A stretch of DNA of 64,000 bases from Leptotrichia hofstadii (GTDB lineage Bacteria; Fusobacteriota; Fusobacteriia; Fusobacteriales; Leptotrichiaceae), in assembly GCF_007990525.1 (NCBI RefSeq), contig NZ_AP019823.1, positions 930,001 to 994,000 on the forward strand. Direction: 5' to 3'. Of the stretch, positions 1 through 46,578 are shown one piece after another. Made by a program: the position numbers and the translations under genes. Every line of letters starts with the position of its first letter. Position 1 is the first letter of the stretch. The notes below the pieces were generated by a model, which was given only the letters and a program-made list of their open reading frames with translations, was not told the DNA's origin and did no database searches.

Positions 1-217
1 TTTTAAAATTTACATTTTTTCCATTGTAAATTATCTCACCTTCATCCTTTTGATATACTCCAGTAAGAACCTTCATTAATGTTGACTTTCCAGCACCGTT
101 TTCTCCTAGAAAAGCATTTACTTCTCCAGCATACAAATCAATGTAAGCATGATCCAGAGCTTTTACTCCTGGAAAAGTTTTTACTATATTTTTCATTTCC
201 AGTATTTTTTCAGCCAT
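1..217 (-). CDS. Sugar ABC transporter ATP-binding protein, N-terminal part (cut by window edge)
   Basis: About 72 N-terminal residues are present and the gene runs off the left edge. They begin [20 protein letters not shown] and include the Walker A motif GENGAGKST followed by LMKVLTGVY. This is the pattern of the two-domain RbsA/MglA/RhaT-type sugar importer ATPases. Its ATG follows the rhamnulokinase TAA directly, and its ribosome binding site (GGAGG) lies inside the 3' end of that gene, so the two are translationally linked. The likely substrate is the deoxy sugar used by the kinase and aldolase upstream; that is inferred from context. The family is certain, the substrate is not. Confidence 0.88.
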
Positions 218-1684
218 TTATTTTTCCTCCTTTCTTTTAGATTTATATTCTATTATTTCTACAGAATTTTTTACAATTTCTCTTCCTTCTTCTAAATTTT
301 TAACAAGTCCAAGAGCAATAAACTGTGTTATTATATTTCCAAACGCTGACGCTTCTATTGGCCCTGCCTTAATTACTCTATTTGTTTCATCTGAAATTTC
401 CTGACATAGGAATTTATCCTGTATTCCTCCTCCAATTGCTATAATCGAAGTGAATTCATTTCCAACCAGTTTTTCTAGTTCCTTTATACTCTTATTGTAC
501 TGTTTCTTTAAGCTGTTGTATGCTACTCTTAGTAAATCTTCATCTGTCTCTGGAACTTCTTGCCCAGTTTCCCTGCAATATTCTTTTATTTCCATGTCCA
601 TCTTTTCAGCGTGTAAAAATCTTTCATTTTCTAAATCGACAAATGAAATCAAGTTTGATTTCTTAGCCATATTTCCAAAATCTGAATAATCTATATCAAG
701 ATTTTTTTCATTAAATATTTTTTTCAGCTGCTGCAGTATCCACAAACCTGGTATCATTTTGAGCACTCTTGCTTTTTTTTCTATTCCGCCTTCATTTACA
801 ATATTATTTTTAAAAGCTTCTTCATTTACAACGGAAACATCTGATTCAAAGCCAATTATTGACCATGTTCCGTTTATTACATATAAAGAATTTTCTACTA
901 ACGGTGCTCCTGCTATTGCCGCCGCTGAGTCATGAGATGCAGTCAAGATTACATTCAAAGGTTTTATTCCCAGTTCCTTCTGAATAGTTTCCTTCAATGG
1001 TGCAAGGACTTGACCTCCATGTTCTATATCTCCAACAATGCTTTCAGGAATATCTAACTTTTCAAATATTTTTTTGCTCCATTTCTTATTATCAATATTT
1101 ACCATTCCGCTAGTAGAACTGATTGTATATTCCCACGATTTTTTTCCTGTAAGAAAATATGCAAATAAATTTGGCATAAATTGAAGCTGTTTTGCTCCTT
1201 TTTCAAGAACTTTTCTTTTATGTATATCATAAAATATTTGATAAACTGAATTAAAAGAATAAAACTGAACTCCTGTTTCATTAAATATTTCTTCAAGAGA
1301 AACTTTACTGTGAACTTCTTCAAAAACTTCTTCCGTTCTTGTGTCTCTATAGCATATAGGAAGCGACAATAGTTCTCCTCTTTCATCAATCCATCCGTAA
1401 TCTACTCCCCAAGTATCTACACCTAATCCCAGAACCTCAATATTTTCACTAGTAACAACACTTTCCTTTGAAAAAACTTTTTTTAATCCTTCTTTTAATT
1501 CATTGTATAAATAAGGGAAATCCCAATATTCATATTGATTTAGTTTAACAGAGCAATTTTTAAATCTGTGCATTTCCTTCAATTCTATTTTTTTTGTATC
1601 TTCATTTAAGATACCCAAAACTAATCTACCTGATGAAGCTCCGTAATCAAATGCCAGAACTGCTTTTTTTCCCAATGCAATCAC
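218..1684 (-). CDS. rhaB: Rhamnulokinase (FGGY carbohydrate kinase family)
   Basis: This 488-residue protein has the usual length of rhamnulokinases. It starts with the family signature FDYGASSGRLVLG (ATP-binding loop) and carries a central ASHDSAAAIAGAPL segment with the catalytic-base aspartate region. A C-terminal IIAIGGGIQDKFLCQ phosphate-binding block follows. It would phosphorylate L-rhamnulose (or a related ketose such as L-fuculose) to the 1-phosphate in the cytoplasm, feeding the class II aldolase encoded immediately upstream. The start codon follows the aldolase stop without a gap, so the operon reads aldolase, kinase, ABC ATPase. Transcription is presumably governed by the palindrome array upstream of the aldolase. 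Rhamnulose fits the sequence signature best, but fuculose cannot be excluded. Confidence 0.88.
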   Translation of the reverse strand: MIALGKKAVLAFDYGASSGRLVLGILNEDTKKIELKEMHRFKNCSVKLNQYEYWDFPYLYNELKEGLKKVFSKESVVTSENIEVLGLGVDTWGVDYGWIDERGELLSLPICYRDTRTEEVFEEVHSKVSLEEIFNETGVQFYSFNSVYQIFYDIHKRKVLEKGAKQLQFMPNLFAYFLTGKKSWEYTISSTSGMVNIDNKKWSKKIFEKLDIPESIVGDIEHGGQVLAPLKETIQKELGIKPLNVILTASHDSAAAIAGAPLVENSLYVINGTWSIIGFESDVSVVNEEAFKNNIVNEGGIEKKARVLKMIPGLWILQQLKKIFNEKNLDIDYSDFGNMAKKSNLISFVDLENERFLHAEKMDMEIKEYCRETGQEVPETDEDLLRVAYNSLKKQYNKSIKELEKLVGNEFTSIIAIGGGIQDKFLCQEISDETNRVIKAGPIEASAFGNIITQFIALGLVKNLEEGREIVKNSVEIIEYKSKRKEEK

Positions 1685-2338
1685 CTACTTTATAGATTTT
1701 ATTTGTCCGTATGTTTTAAATCTCTCAAGCATGCTGTTCATTTCATTGTCAGGTAATATAATAGGTTCTCCTATATTTCTCGCCTTTATATATAAATTAG
1801 AGATATACTCTACCTGAACTGTTATATTGAAAGCATTTGCTATATCCTTTCCAGCTGTTGTCAATCCATGGTTTGCCAGTATTACTGCAAGACTGCTTCC
1901 CATCGCCTTATAGGCATTTTCAGCCAGTTCCTTTGTTCCATACGAAGCATATTCAGCGCATCTTACTTTTGTTGCTCCTGTAACAGCAATCATATAATCA
2001 ATTGCTGGTAAATCTTGTCTCAAGCATGCTAATACTGTAGTGTACACTGGGTGGGTATGTATAACAGCATTTACATCTTCACGATTTCTGTATAAAATCA
2101 TGTGCATTTCCAATTCACTTGAGGGTTTCAATCCTTCGATAAGTTTTCCTTCCAAATCAACTATTGAAATCATTTCTGGAGTTAATTCTGAATAGTTTAC
2201 TCCAGTTGGGCTTATTGCAACCAACCCCTCTTCTCTGTTAAAAATACTTACATTACCAGCTGTTCCATTTGTAAGTCCTTCTGATAATAATTTAAGAGAA
2301 TATTCAATTACCTGCTCTCTTTCTTTTTCAAGAATCAT
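1685..2338 (-). CDS. Class II sugar-phosphate aldolase (L-fuculose/L-rhamnulose-1-phosphate aldolase type)
   Basis: The 217-residue protein matches the AraD/FucA class II aldolase family in length and motifs. GNVSIFNRE and AISPTGVNY are phosphate-binding loops, and the zinc ligands sit in a Glu followed by HTHPVY near residue 95. LANHGLTTAG carries the third histidine. It would split the ketose-1-phosphate made by the adjacent kinase into dihydroxyacetone phosphate and L-lactaldehyde. It is the first gene of the operon. The ATG at 2338 has a strong AAGGAGG site 5-6 bases upstream. Degenerate copies of this same start region recur three times upstream. FucA-like length favours fuculose phosphate and the neighbouring kinase favours rhamnulose phosphate, so the exact substrate is left open. 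Confidence 0.85.
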   Translation of the reverse strand: MILEKEREQVIEYSLKLLSEGLTNGTAGNVSIFNREEGLVAISPTGVNYSELTPEMISIVDLEGKLIEGLKPSSELEMHMILYRNREDVNAVIHTHPVYTTVLACLRQDLPAIDYMIAVTGATKVRCAEYASYGTKELAENAYKAMGSSLAVILANHGLTTAGKDIANAFNITVQVEYISNLYIKARNIGEPIILPDNEMNSMLERFKTYGQIKSIK

Positions 2339-2357
2339 AATTTCCTCCTTTTAATTA

Positions 2358-2371
2358 TGGGAGCGTTCCCA
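2358..2371. promoter_or_regulatory. LacI-type operator palindrome 1
   Basis: TGGGAGCGTTCCCA is a near-perfect 14-bp palindrome centred on CG, the shape typical of LacI/GalR-family operators. It lies 20 bp upstream of the aldolase start codon, within the transcribed leader. It is the best-preserved of five such sites. Which repressor binds it is unknown, as no LacI-family gene is in the window. Confidence 0.65.
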
Positions 2372-2421
2372 GTTAATTATTTTGCTCTTTTCCACGAATT
2401 ATAATCTCCTTCTTTTATTCA

Positions 2422-2435
2422 TAGGAGCGTTCCCA
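2422..2435. promoter_or_regulatory. LacI-type operator palindrome 2
   Basis: TAGGAGCGTTCCCA matches palindrome 1 at 13 of 14 positions and starts exactly 64 bp from it. Confidence 0.62.
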
Positions 2436-2485
2436 GTTCCCTGTTTTACTTCTTTTTCAAGAATCATAATCTTGTCATCTACTTA

Positions 2486-2499
2486 TAGAAACGCTCCCG
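2486..2499. promoter_or_regulatory. LacI-type operator palindrome 3
   Basis: TAGAAACGCTCCCG is a weaker version of the same palindrome. It matches the reverse complement of palindrome 1 (TGGGAACGCTCCCA) at 11 of 14 positions. It starts 64 bp from palindrome 2. Confidence 0.55.
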
Positions 2500-2550
2500 A
2501 TTACCTGTTCCCTTTCTTTTTTAAGAATCATACTTCCCTCCTTCTATTTA

Positions 2551-2564
2551 TGAGAGCGTTCTCT
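2551..2564. promoter_or_regulatory. LacI-type operator palindrome 4
   Basis: TGAGAGCGTTCTCT is another symmetric variant, 65 bp from palindrome 3. It lies just beyond the outermost duplicated start codon. Confidence 0.58.
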
Positions 2565-2619
2565 TTAAATAGCGTCTTTTATAGCTTATTATAGGTATAA
2601 TCTAATTAATTTAATTATG

Positions 2620-2633
2620 TGAGAACGTTCCTA
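2620..2633. promoter_or_regulatory. LacI-type operator palindrome 5 at the promoter
   Basis: TGAGAACGTTCCTA lies 69 bp from palindrome 4 and about 17 bp downstream of the predicted -10 box of the operon promoter. A bound repressor there would block transcription. The other four copies would be auxiliary sites. Confidence 0.62.
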
Positions 2634-2649
2634 CATATATCTTACTACT

Positions 2650-2677
2650 AATATAACCTATTTTTTAAAAAAGTCAA
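2650..2677 (-). promoter_or_regulatory. Predicted promoter of the deoxy-sugar operon
   Basis: On the minus strand TTGACT (2677-2672) is followed after 16 bp by TATATT (2655-2650), a good sigma-70-type pair. It is placed just upstream of palindrome 5 and would give a leader of about 300 nucleotides that contains the whole repeat array. Confidence 0.65.
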
Positions 2678-2748: not shown

Positions 2749-2978
2749 TTATTTATACTTGAAATTTTCTGCCTTATTCTTGTCTCCACCAATATAAGTT
2801 GCTACCTTCAGATATGGACAAAATGGCTGTTTCCGTATTTTGATCTAGATATCTTTTTCCAGCTTTTTCAACTAGACAATCTGGTATCATATTTTCTTCA
2901 GTCCATTTTTCAAAGAGCTGTTAAAGCATCAAAATTTTTCATTGCAGGAACTATGAATAAACGTGTTAAACTATCCAC
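2749..2978 (-). pseudogene. Decayed C-terminal fragment of a tannase/feruloyl esterase family protein
   Basis: Three consecutive pieces in different minus-strand frames resemble the C-terminus of the tannase/feruloyl esterase family. They are LTRLFIVPAM...NFDALTAL, then KWTEENMIPDCLVEKAGKR, then PFCPYLKVATYIGGDKNKAENF before a TAA. In intact enzymes the corresponding blocks are RLFMVPGM, FDALTAL..W, and RPLCPYP..A.Y.G. At least two frameshifts separate the pieces, and nothing recognisable of the N-terminal part remains. It is therefore a relic. It lies upstream of, and in the same orientation as, the deoxy-sugar operon. Recognition rests on remembered family motifs. Confidence 0.6.
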
Positions 2979-3074
2979 ATTTCACATATTTTTGATGAAT
3001 TTACTATTACTAATACAACAAAAAATATATATTTTGAAGTTTTAAATTTTTTAAGAAAATATTTTTTTGACTAA

Positions 3075-3102
3075 TTGACTTTTTTTTAAAATATGATATA
3101 AT
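3075..3102 (+). promoter_or_regulatory. Predicted promoter of a short RNA
   Basis: TTGACT (3075-3080), a 16-bp spacer ending in the extended element TGA, then TATAAT (3097-3102). It would start transcription near 3109, just ahead of a short terminated segment. Confidence 0.6.
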
Positions 3103-3108
3103 TAAATT

Positions 3109-3182
3109 GTTAAAAACCCTAAGGGGAATTTATGATATGTAATAAAATTGGGATAAAAAGCTAGATTTTTCTAGCTTTTTTT
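3109..3182 (+). ncRNA. Candidate small RNA, possible type I antitoxin
   Basis: A segment of about 74 nucleotides lies between a good promoter and a strong intrinsic terminator. It contains GATATGTAAT and GGG blocks (3133-3151) complementary to CCCAAATTACATATC (3211-3225). That target sits directly before the Shine-Dalgarno sequence of the tiny ORF downstream. Its CCCTAAGG near 3117 is also complementary to CCTTAGGG near 3340, beyond that ORF. The layout suggests an RNA that pairs with both ends of the downstream message. The existence of the transcript is a prediction. Confidence 0.45.
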
Positions 3183-3183
3183 G
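3154..3183 (+). terminator. Intrinsic terminator of the candidate small RNA
   Basis: AAAAAGCTAGA and its complement TCTAGCTTTTTTT form an approximately 10-bp stem with a short T loop, followed by a T run. Confidence 0.75.
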
Positions 3184-3241
3184 TTATAATTAACTTTGGG
3201 TATCCCAATGCCCAAATTACATATCAAGGAGGTTTAGAGCT

Positions 3242-3307
3242 ATGAATAGCGATGAACTTATTAGACTTCTAGTTATTATGTATATTGTTTACAGATTAAC
3301 TAGATAG
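3242..3307 (+). CDS. 21-residue hydrophobic peptide, candidate type I toxin
   Basis: A short ORF begins MNSDELIRLL and continues as a hydrophobic stretch VIMYIVY, ending RLTR before TAG. A textbook ribosome site AAGGAGG (3226-3232) lies 9 bases before the ATG. A separate extended -10 (TGTTATAAT, ending 3190) could start its message at about 3197. There a TTGGG/CCCAA hairpin would form the 5' end. Small single-helix peptides with such leaders are typical of type I toxins. The peptide matches no family I can name. The strong ribosome site and complementarity to the upstream RNA are the evidence that it is real. Confidence 0.5.
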   Translation: MNSDELIRLLVIMYIVYRLTR

Positions 3308-3365
3308 TCGAAAAATCTCGAATTTCACCTCTGCCTCTACCCTTAGGGGATTTCGATTAATAAAA

Positions 3366-44976: not shown

Positions 44977-45369
44977 GAAGTCTTTTAATTTTCAAAGAAA
45001 CGAATCTGTTCAGTAATTGTATAAATTTTTAAATATAATGAAAAAAATATTATTCGGAAGTAATTAAATTCCTTTGTTAAAGATAAAGTATATTGAATCA
45101 TTAAACAAGTATAATGGATCAGAAATGCAAATTTTTAATAGGAATTTTGTGAAGTCTAGATATTTTTTATATTTTTATTATAAATTTAGCTAAAATATCT
45201 AAAAAAGACTATATTTTTGATTACGCTAAACTTTATGGATTAAAAAACGAAAAAAAATATAAAATTTTCAATTATAAAAATATAATTTTAGCATTAACTT
45301 GAAAAAACTTTATTTTTTTAGAAATATAAGGTATAATATGATAAATATTTGGAAAATAGGAGTTTTTTT
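44977..45369. other. Intergenic stretch with a possible coding remnant
   Basis: About 390 bp before the Fic gene. In one plus-strand frame, 45186-45303 reads LAKISKKDYIFDYAKLYGLK and on to a TGA, with no start or ribosome site. It may be the tail of a lost gene. The rest is AT-rich and featureless apart from the Fic gene's own leader. Confidence 0.35.
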
Positions 45370-46578
45370 ATGAATAATTATTTGGAATTGTCAAAATTAT
45401 ACTATCAAAAAGCTAATATTGAAGAAGAATTGAATAAAAGACTTGAACATCCATGTGTTTATAAAACATCTTTATATATTTCGCCAATTTTACGGGGAGA
45501 AAGAGTTTCAAAGGAAGTAGAATTATTTTTTTTACCAATAAAAAATGTATTAATGTTACAAGATGAAATAATCCAAAATAGTAGAGATATTTTAAATTTG
45601 TCTAACGAACTGCCTGAAGTGGCTTTAAATTATTGTGTAAGAGAAATTATGGTTAATGAAATAATAAAAAGTAATGGGATTGAAGGAGTTCATACAACAA
45701 AAAAAGATGTGTATGATAGCATAAATTCCAATAAAAAATATAGATTTTCAGGAATTGTAAAAAAATATAAGCAAATAACAGAAAATAAGATTCAAAAAAT
45801 TAATTCTGCAGAAGAAATACGAAAAATATACGATGAAGTTTTTAGTGAAGAAATTGTAATTAATTCAGAGAACAAATTAGATGGGAAATTATTTAGAAAA
45901 GGTATTGTTCATGTCACAACGGGAATGAAAAATGTTCATTTAGGCGATACAACGGAAGAACTAATATTAGAGCATATTGAAAAATTGATAGAATTTATGA
46001 ATAGAAAAGATATAAATTTTTTATTAAAAGCCTGTATTACTCATTATTATTTTGAATACATTCATCCATTTTATGATGGAAATGGACGATTTGGAAGACT
46101 AATTTTCTCAATGTACCTGGCAAGAAAATTAGATGTATTTACGGGATTGTCATTGTCTTACTCAATTTTTTCTAAAAAGGAAAAATATTCAAAGTTATTT
46201 CTGAATACTTCAAATTCTAAAAATTTTGGTGAAATAACATTTTTTCTCATAGGCATGTTGGAACTAATAAAAAAAGGACAAGAAAGTATAATGAAAATGC
46301 TGGAAGATAAAATAGAAAAATTGAATTTTTCGAGAAATTATTTGAATAATCTCAATTTAAGCGATTTGGAGAAAGATATAATGTTTGTATATATTCAAAA
46401 TCATATTTTTTCTAATTCTGATTTAGAAGATAAAGAATTATGTAAAATAATAAATATGAGCAGACCTACACTAAAAAATAATATAGAACAATTAATAAAA
46501 AAAGAATACTTGACAAAAATTTCTAAAAAACCAATAACACATGTTTTAAGTGACAAATTACAGAAAGTTATTGACTAA
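45370..46578 (+). CDS. Fic-family protein (class II, with N-terminal inhibitory motif)
   Basis: About 402 residues. The Fic active-site motif HPFYDGNGRFGR (residues 232-243) is complete, including His, Asn and both Arg, so AMP transfer is expected. Upstream, SNGIEG (residues 101-106) matches the (S/T)xxxE(G/N) inhibitory helix of class II Fic proteins, whose Glu blocks ATP positioning. The last ~70 residues look like a winged helix (LCKIINMSRPTLKNNIEQLI). Such Fic proteins modify cellular targets by AMPylation. TAGGAG precedes the ATG at 45370, preferred over an upstream TTG. Confidence 0.88.
   Translation: MNNYLELSKLYYQKANIEEELNKRLEHPCVYKTSLYISPILRGERVSKEVELFFLPIKNVLMLQDEIIQNSRDILNLSNELPEVALNYCVREIMVNEIIKSNGIEGVHTTKKDVYDSINSNKKYRFSGIVKKYKQITENKIQKINSAEEIRKIYDEVFSEEIVINSENKLDGKLFRKGIVHVTTGMKNVHLGDTTEELILEHIEKLIEFMNRKDINFLLKACITHYYFEYIHPFYDGNGRFGRLIFSMYLARKLDVFTGLSLSYSIFSKKEKYSKLFLNTSNSKNFGEITFFLIGMLELIKKGQESIMKMLEDKIEKLNFSRNYLNNLNLSDLEKDIMFVYIQNHIFSNSDLEDKELCKIINMSRPTLKNNIEQLIKKEYLTKISKKPITHVLSDKLQKVID

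Follow-up and report, generated by a model that had tools for sequence, protein, structure and literature searches.

Five predicted operators and copies of the fucA start in the control region of an L-fucose operon of Leptotrichia hofstadii

The control region of the L-fucose operon of Leptotrichia hofstadii contains five CG-centred palindromes, located between a sigma-70-like promoter and the first gene, fucA (positions 2310-2640 of the window, i.e. of the whole 64,000-nt stretch of DNA analysed here). We propose that these five sites are bound by the operon's own LacI-family repressor, which would act at the promoter-proximal operator O1 as a block to transcription and at the four others, O2 to O5, as a series of roadblocks to RNA polymerase. 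Judging from the sequence, this explanation, taken as a whole, is probably the correct one.

The fuc operon and its operator array

The genes of the operon and its control region lie on the minus strand. Within the window we find fucA, encoding an L-fuculose-phosphate aldolase of 217 aa (1685..2338; NCBIfam NF005302, 305 bits, cut-off 264), a rhamnulokinase-like FGGY sugar kinase, presumed to be the L-fuculokinase (218..1684; TIGR02627, 435 bits, under the cut-off of 528), and the start of a gene for a sugar ABC transporter ATPase (2..217). The operon continues past the window with genes for a permease and a binding protein, with fucI and with fucU, followed by a hairpin with a T run and then by a lacI-family gene. 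FucI passes its family cut-off (1078 bits, cut-off 775) and FucU fails to reach its own (128 bits vs 141); the roles of the kinase and of FucU, both under their family cut-offs, are thus suggested by operon context. Since FucA and FucI score above the NCBIfam cut-offs, the sugar is L-fucose and not rhamnose, and the operon is an L-fucose catabolic operon.

Read along the minus strand, the control region consists of the promoter, O1 and then four units, in each of which an operator is followed by copies of the ribosome site and of the initial fucA codons. The promoter, read from the sequence as TTGACT-16 bp-TATATT (2650..2677), has the same boxes and the same spacing in all four species compared below. 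Predicted operator O1 (AGGAACGTTCTC, 2621..2632) starts 17 bp past the -10 box, at about +10 to +22, and is invariant (12 of 12 positions) in these four species. It is followed by the predicted operators O2 (GAGAACGCTCTC, 2552..2563), O3 (GGGAGCGTTTCT, 2487..2498), O4 (GGGAACGCTCCT, 2423..2434) and O5 (GGGAACGCTCCC, 2359..2370), which form the heads of units U2, U3, U4 and U5, respectively; O5 adjoins the fucA ribosome site. All five palindromes were found at the start-to-start steps of 64, 64, 65 and 69 bp given in the original prediction, and in L. hofstadii each of the five is an even palindrome with a CG centre, as in LacI/GalR-controlled operons. The general pattern RRRARCGYTYYY has six matches in the 64-kb window, five of them inside the array; shuffled sequence yielded a mean of 1.13 matches, and none of 100 shuffles reached six. 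Upstream of the promoter (2750-2830, minus strand), there is an apparent end of a coding frame (...NKAENFKYK, then a stop) that is kept in relatives.

Repeat units and their history in the genus

Four species were compared: L. hofstadii, the source of the window (G000), G009, G011 (oral taxon 879) and L. hongkongensis (G007). In L. hofstadii, an unguided repeat finder reported a 71-nt repeat that occurs four times at distances of 64, 65 and 64 bp, with 61-83% identity to the reference copy, and an independent tandem-repeat search returned a period-64 repeat at the array. According to the unit alignment, U2 (2501..2565) comprises its operator, an intact SD (AGAAGGAGG), an ATG and fucA-like codons. 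U3 (2437..2500) has its operator and ATG, with the SD gone; U4 (2373..2436) has its operator, an SD-like AGAAGGAG and an ATA in place of the ATG; and U5 (2308..2372) consists of its operator, the SD and the genuine fucA start. The duplicated unit measures 64-65 bp in L. hofstadii, 63-65 bp being given for the array units. The copies of the fucA start expected in every intervening unit are therefore real, but decayed only in U3 and U4, as U2 retains both SD and ATG. Similarly, serial duplication of an operator-plus-start segment, as originally proposed, is borne out for the four downstream units by their alignment and orthologues, but not for O1, which sits in unrelated sequence outside any duplicated unit; the 69-bp step between O1 and O2 does not correspond to a repeat unit.

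The original prediction also envisaged one or two translated leader peptides. The reading frames are not conserved. A possible leader ORF in U2 (MILKKEREQVIGSVSISR, then a stop; 2475..2531) is maintained neither in sequence nor in length, with 18 codons in L. hofstadii and G009 and a different, frame-shifted stretch of 9 codons in G011. In G009, the U3 frame ends after five codons, and U4 has no start codon. Start codons and leader ORFs generated by the duplications are presumably decaying by-products.

In a repeat survey of a 464-kb sample of this genome, no large tandem repeat other than the array was located at the start of a gene. A smaller one, a 32-bp tandem duplication of the SD/start-codon region that precedes another gene and carries no operator, was seen at 45322-45387 on the plus strand. 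At L150:17239-17426 there are CRISPR-like direct repeats that recur about every 74 bp.

G009 and G011 possess five operators in the same places as L. hofstadii; L. hongkongensis shares the promoter, and its O1 is identical in sequence, but only one unit follows. Counting units in relatives, as had been suggested, thus gives five operators in three species and two in L. hongkongensis, i.e. a number that varies between species. The units can be aligned, present their elements in the same order and are fewer in a relative, as would be expected of a tandem duplication. In a tree of the units, U2, U3 and U4 cluster by position across the three species, which indicates that the duplications precede the species split; formation of the array by tandem duplication before the three array-bearing species diverged is well supported by these comparisons.

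The species tree based on uvrB and radA groups L. hongkongensis with G011 and L. hofstadii with G009 (support of 1.0 each), and a tree of fucA, kinase and ABC genes with an outgroup again pairs L. hongkongensis with G011 (95%). The fucA-only tree, in which L. hongkongensis falls outside (65%), is ambiguous. As the uvrB+radA tree and the longer operon tree agree, the array would most parsimoniously have collapsed in L. hongkongensis, a scenario that is favoured, not proven. The identity of the fuc operon (98.1% between L. hofstadii and G009, 96.0% between L. hofstadii and G011) exceeds that of uvrB+radA (94.9% and 93.5%, respectively), which may reflect interspecies recombination or operon transfer.

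In a Sebaldella metagenome bin (L046), the fuc operon has two CG-centred sites: the first directly follows the -10 box, and the second lies in the leader. Two sites therefore look like the original design, with O1 immediately past the transcription start and O2 immediately before the fucA ribosome site. This layout was then expanded through serial tandem duplication of the 64-65 bp segment comprising O2, the SD and the first codons. The Sebaldella operon shares the gene order fucA-kinase-ABC-binding protein-fucI and has a LacI regulator with 51% identity, but its two sites are 164 bp apart and built from another half-site, and its regulator gene lies upstream instead of downstream.

The linked LacI-family gene and the action of the array

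A lacI-family gene adjoins fucU, 8 kb downstream of the array (G000:C1:923104-924117); the genome has two LacI-family genes in all. The encoded regulator combines a LacI-type HTH domain (PF00356, 69.5 bits, cut-off 27) with a periplasmic-binding-like sugar domain (PF13377, 105 bits, cut-off 26.5). Orthologues with 97-99% identity occur in only four of the 13 genus genomes compared, exactly those with the fuc operon, and the best match in the genomes without it has at most 38% identity. The search for a LacI-family gene that the original prediction had called for thus led to a dedicated one that is linked to the operon and, among the 13 genomes, confined to those bearing it. CG-centred even palindromes are the typical motif of this family, according to a LacI regulon survey (PMC4052901). 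No palindrome of the array type was found in front of the regulator gene, so that the regulator seems not to be autoregulated.

The proposed search for the same palindrome elsewhere was also carried out. Allowing one mismatch, the pattern gave 30 sites vs 27 in a reversed control, and the six non-array near-matches that were examined all lie inside open reading frames. A near-match count close to that of the control, together with the coding location of these six, argues for a local regulon within the part of the weak matches inspected. In other genomes, most weak matches cover only the promoter stretch near TTGACTTTTTTAAAA. A global regulator of the CcpA/cre type was considered and set aside, because the HTH and hinge encoded by the genome's second LacI-family gene are divergent and the palindrome was not found at other promoters. 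Searching a plasmid collection with the region gave no match, and our literature search found no paper combining Leptotrichia, fucose and LacI.

How might five such sites work together? As long as fucose or an inducer derived from it is absent, repressor dimers would occupy O1, preventing initiation or promoter escape, and dimers on O2-O5, within the 5' leader, would each be a roadblock to any RNA polymerase passing O1. The effects of serial roadblocks would multiply, so that basal expression would fall and the induction curve would steepen with no looping or contact between dimers. O1 would then be the essential site, and O2-O5 would be redundant with one another. Roadblocking of elongating RNA polymerase has been shown experimentally for LacI and CcpA (PMC4132739), with one downstream operator in contrast to the four in series proposed here.

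The roadblock explanation has to be weighed against the divergence of the leader operators. Between L. hofstadii and G011, 11 of 48 positions in O2-O5 differ vs 29 of 211 other unit positions; by this measure the operators are not more conserved than the spacer. Moreover, G011 has an O2 without the CG centre and an O5 with two half-site mismatches, and one species out of four manages without the array. Because O2-O5 change no more slowly than the spacers, a serious rival is that the extra units are near-neutral debris of slippage or unequal crossing-over: O1 and perhaps one leader operator would matter, while the extras are tolerated and decay. A divergence of O2-O5 at least as fast as that of the spacers, the loss of SD or start in U3 and U4, the degraded operators of G011 and the units missing from L. 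hongkongensis all fit such a history, and the operator-free duplication at 45322-45387 suggests that start duplications of this kind arise without operators. On the other hand, both lineages have retained the array since a split of about 6.5-8% divergence (uvrB+radA), and no further array of such size was found at a gene start in the sampled 464 kb. In addition, operator changes tend to preserve the half-site RRGARC: we counted four mismatches vs a simulated mean of 8.3 (P=0.007, with a consensus derived partly from the same sites), but with a mostly-transition spectrum the value becomes P=0.10, so that this tendency is suggestive only. Near-neutral debris is thus a quite conceivable account, though not the one we would expect to hold. 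For the extra sites, both the roadblock array and the debris reading are live.

According to the original prediction, dimers on O1-O5 would touch across 64-bp loops and thereby repress cooperatively. The steps of 64-65 bp indeed amount to 6.1-6.2 helical turns, but O1 and O2 are separated by 6.5-6.7 turns in the four species (6.57 in L. hofstadii), about half a turn off, and the helical phase drifts across the array, so that the sites do not share one face of the helix; besides, 63-65 bp is merely the length of the duplicated unit. The repressor, too, speaks against loops: it ends at residue 337, can be aligned over its full length with the CcpA, PurR and RbsR types, and its alignment with E. 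coli LacI stops at residue 305, leaving no tail that matches the tetramer helix. We consider phased looping improbable. Even more doubtful, to the point of being very improbable, is control at the RNA level, with the operators serving as complementary leader-RNA segments (for attenuation or to mask the RBS) or with fucA translation controlled by the U2 peptide: the predicted fold of the leader RNA is stronger than that of shuffled sequence (z about -1.8 to -3.1), and in each of the four species O1 RNA is expected to pair with an operator further downstream, but palindromes pair mutually by construction, the partner of O1 varies with the species (O3, O3, O4, O2), the leader had no match in Rfam (a riboswitch or attenuator was therefore rejected), and the leader ORFs are not conserved.

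Comparison with known systems and further observations

In the lac operon of E. coli (O1/O2/O3), the main operator is located past the transcription start and is accompanied by auxiliary operators, some of them in transcribed DNA. The fuc array resembles it in having a main operator past the start and auxiliaries within transcribed DNA. It differs in that LacI is a looping tetramer, whereas the fuc regulator is without the tetramer tail, and in that all auxiliary sites lie in tandem in the 5' leader.

LacI-family operons with several sites are already known. Ravcheev et al. (2014, PMC4052901), in their survey of LacI regulons, give multiple sites for about 20% of operons, with three-site groups at 116 operons and four-site groups at 5. 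The regulons described there have in common with the fuc operon CG-centred even palindromes upstream of sugar operons and a linked LacI-family gene. However, the five sites of the fuc array outnumber any group listed there (maximum of four adjacent sites), their spacing is 64 bp compared with peaks at 13, 22 and 32 bp, and an origin by copying of a translation start is not described in the section of the survey consulted. What is new here is a set of five sites at even intervals that arose through copying of a translation start.

The four species share the promoter, O1 and a 97-99% identical repressor but have either two or five operators; they form a natural series in which the influence of operator number on leakage and steepness is measurable. 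The array would further provide a stepwise record of regulatory DNA emerging from copies of a gene's own start, with an apparent loss in a sister species. It is a speculative and rather unlikely idea that copying of operator plus start serves as fast, reversible tuning, with the number of 64-bp units (four or one in sister species) setting basal expression and steepness; if true, unit copy number would be the regulatory counterpart of variable-number tandem repeats.

Finally, the plus strand of the window may encode a type I toxin-antitoxin pair at 3070-3360. It would consist of a short RNA with a terminator (3113-3182), plus another transcript that carries an SD and an ORF for a hydrophobic peptide of 21 aa (MNSDELIRLLVIMYIVYRLTR). 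This candidate pair had no Pfam match, and the Rfam family STnc40 stayed under its gathering score. The two transcripts share three complementary segments (3133-3143/3216-3226, 3147-3155/3201-3209 and 3112-3125/3340-3353).
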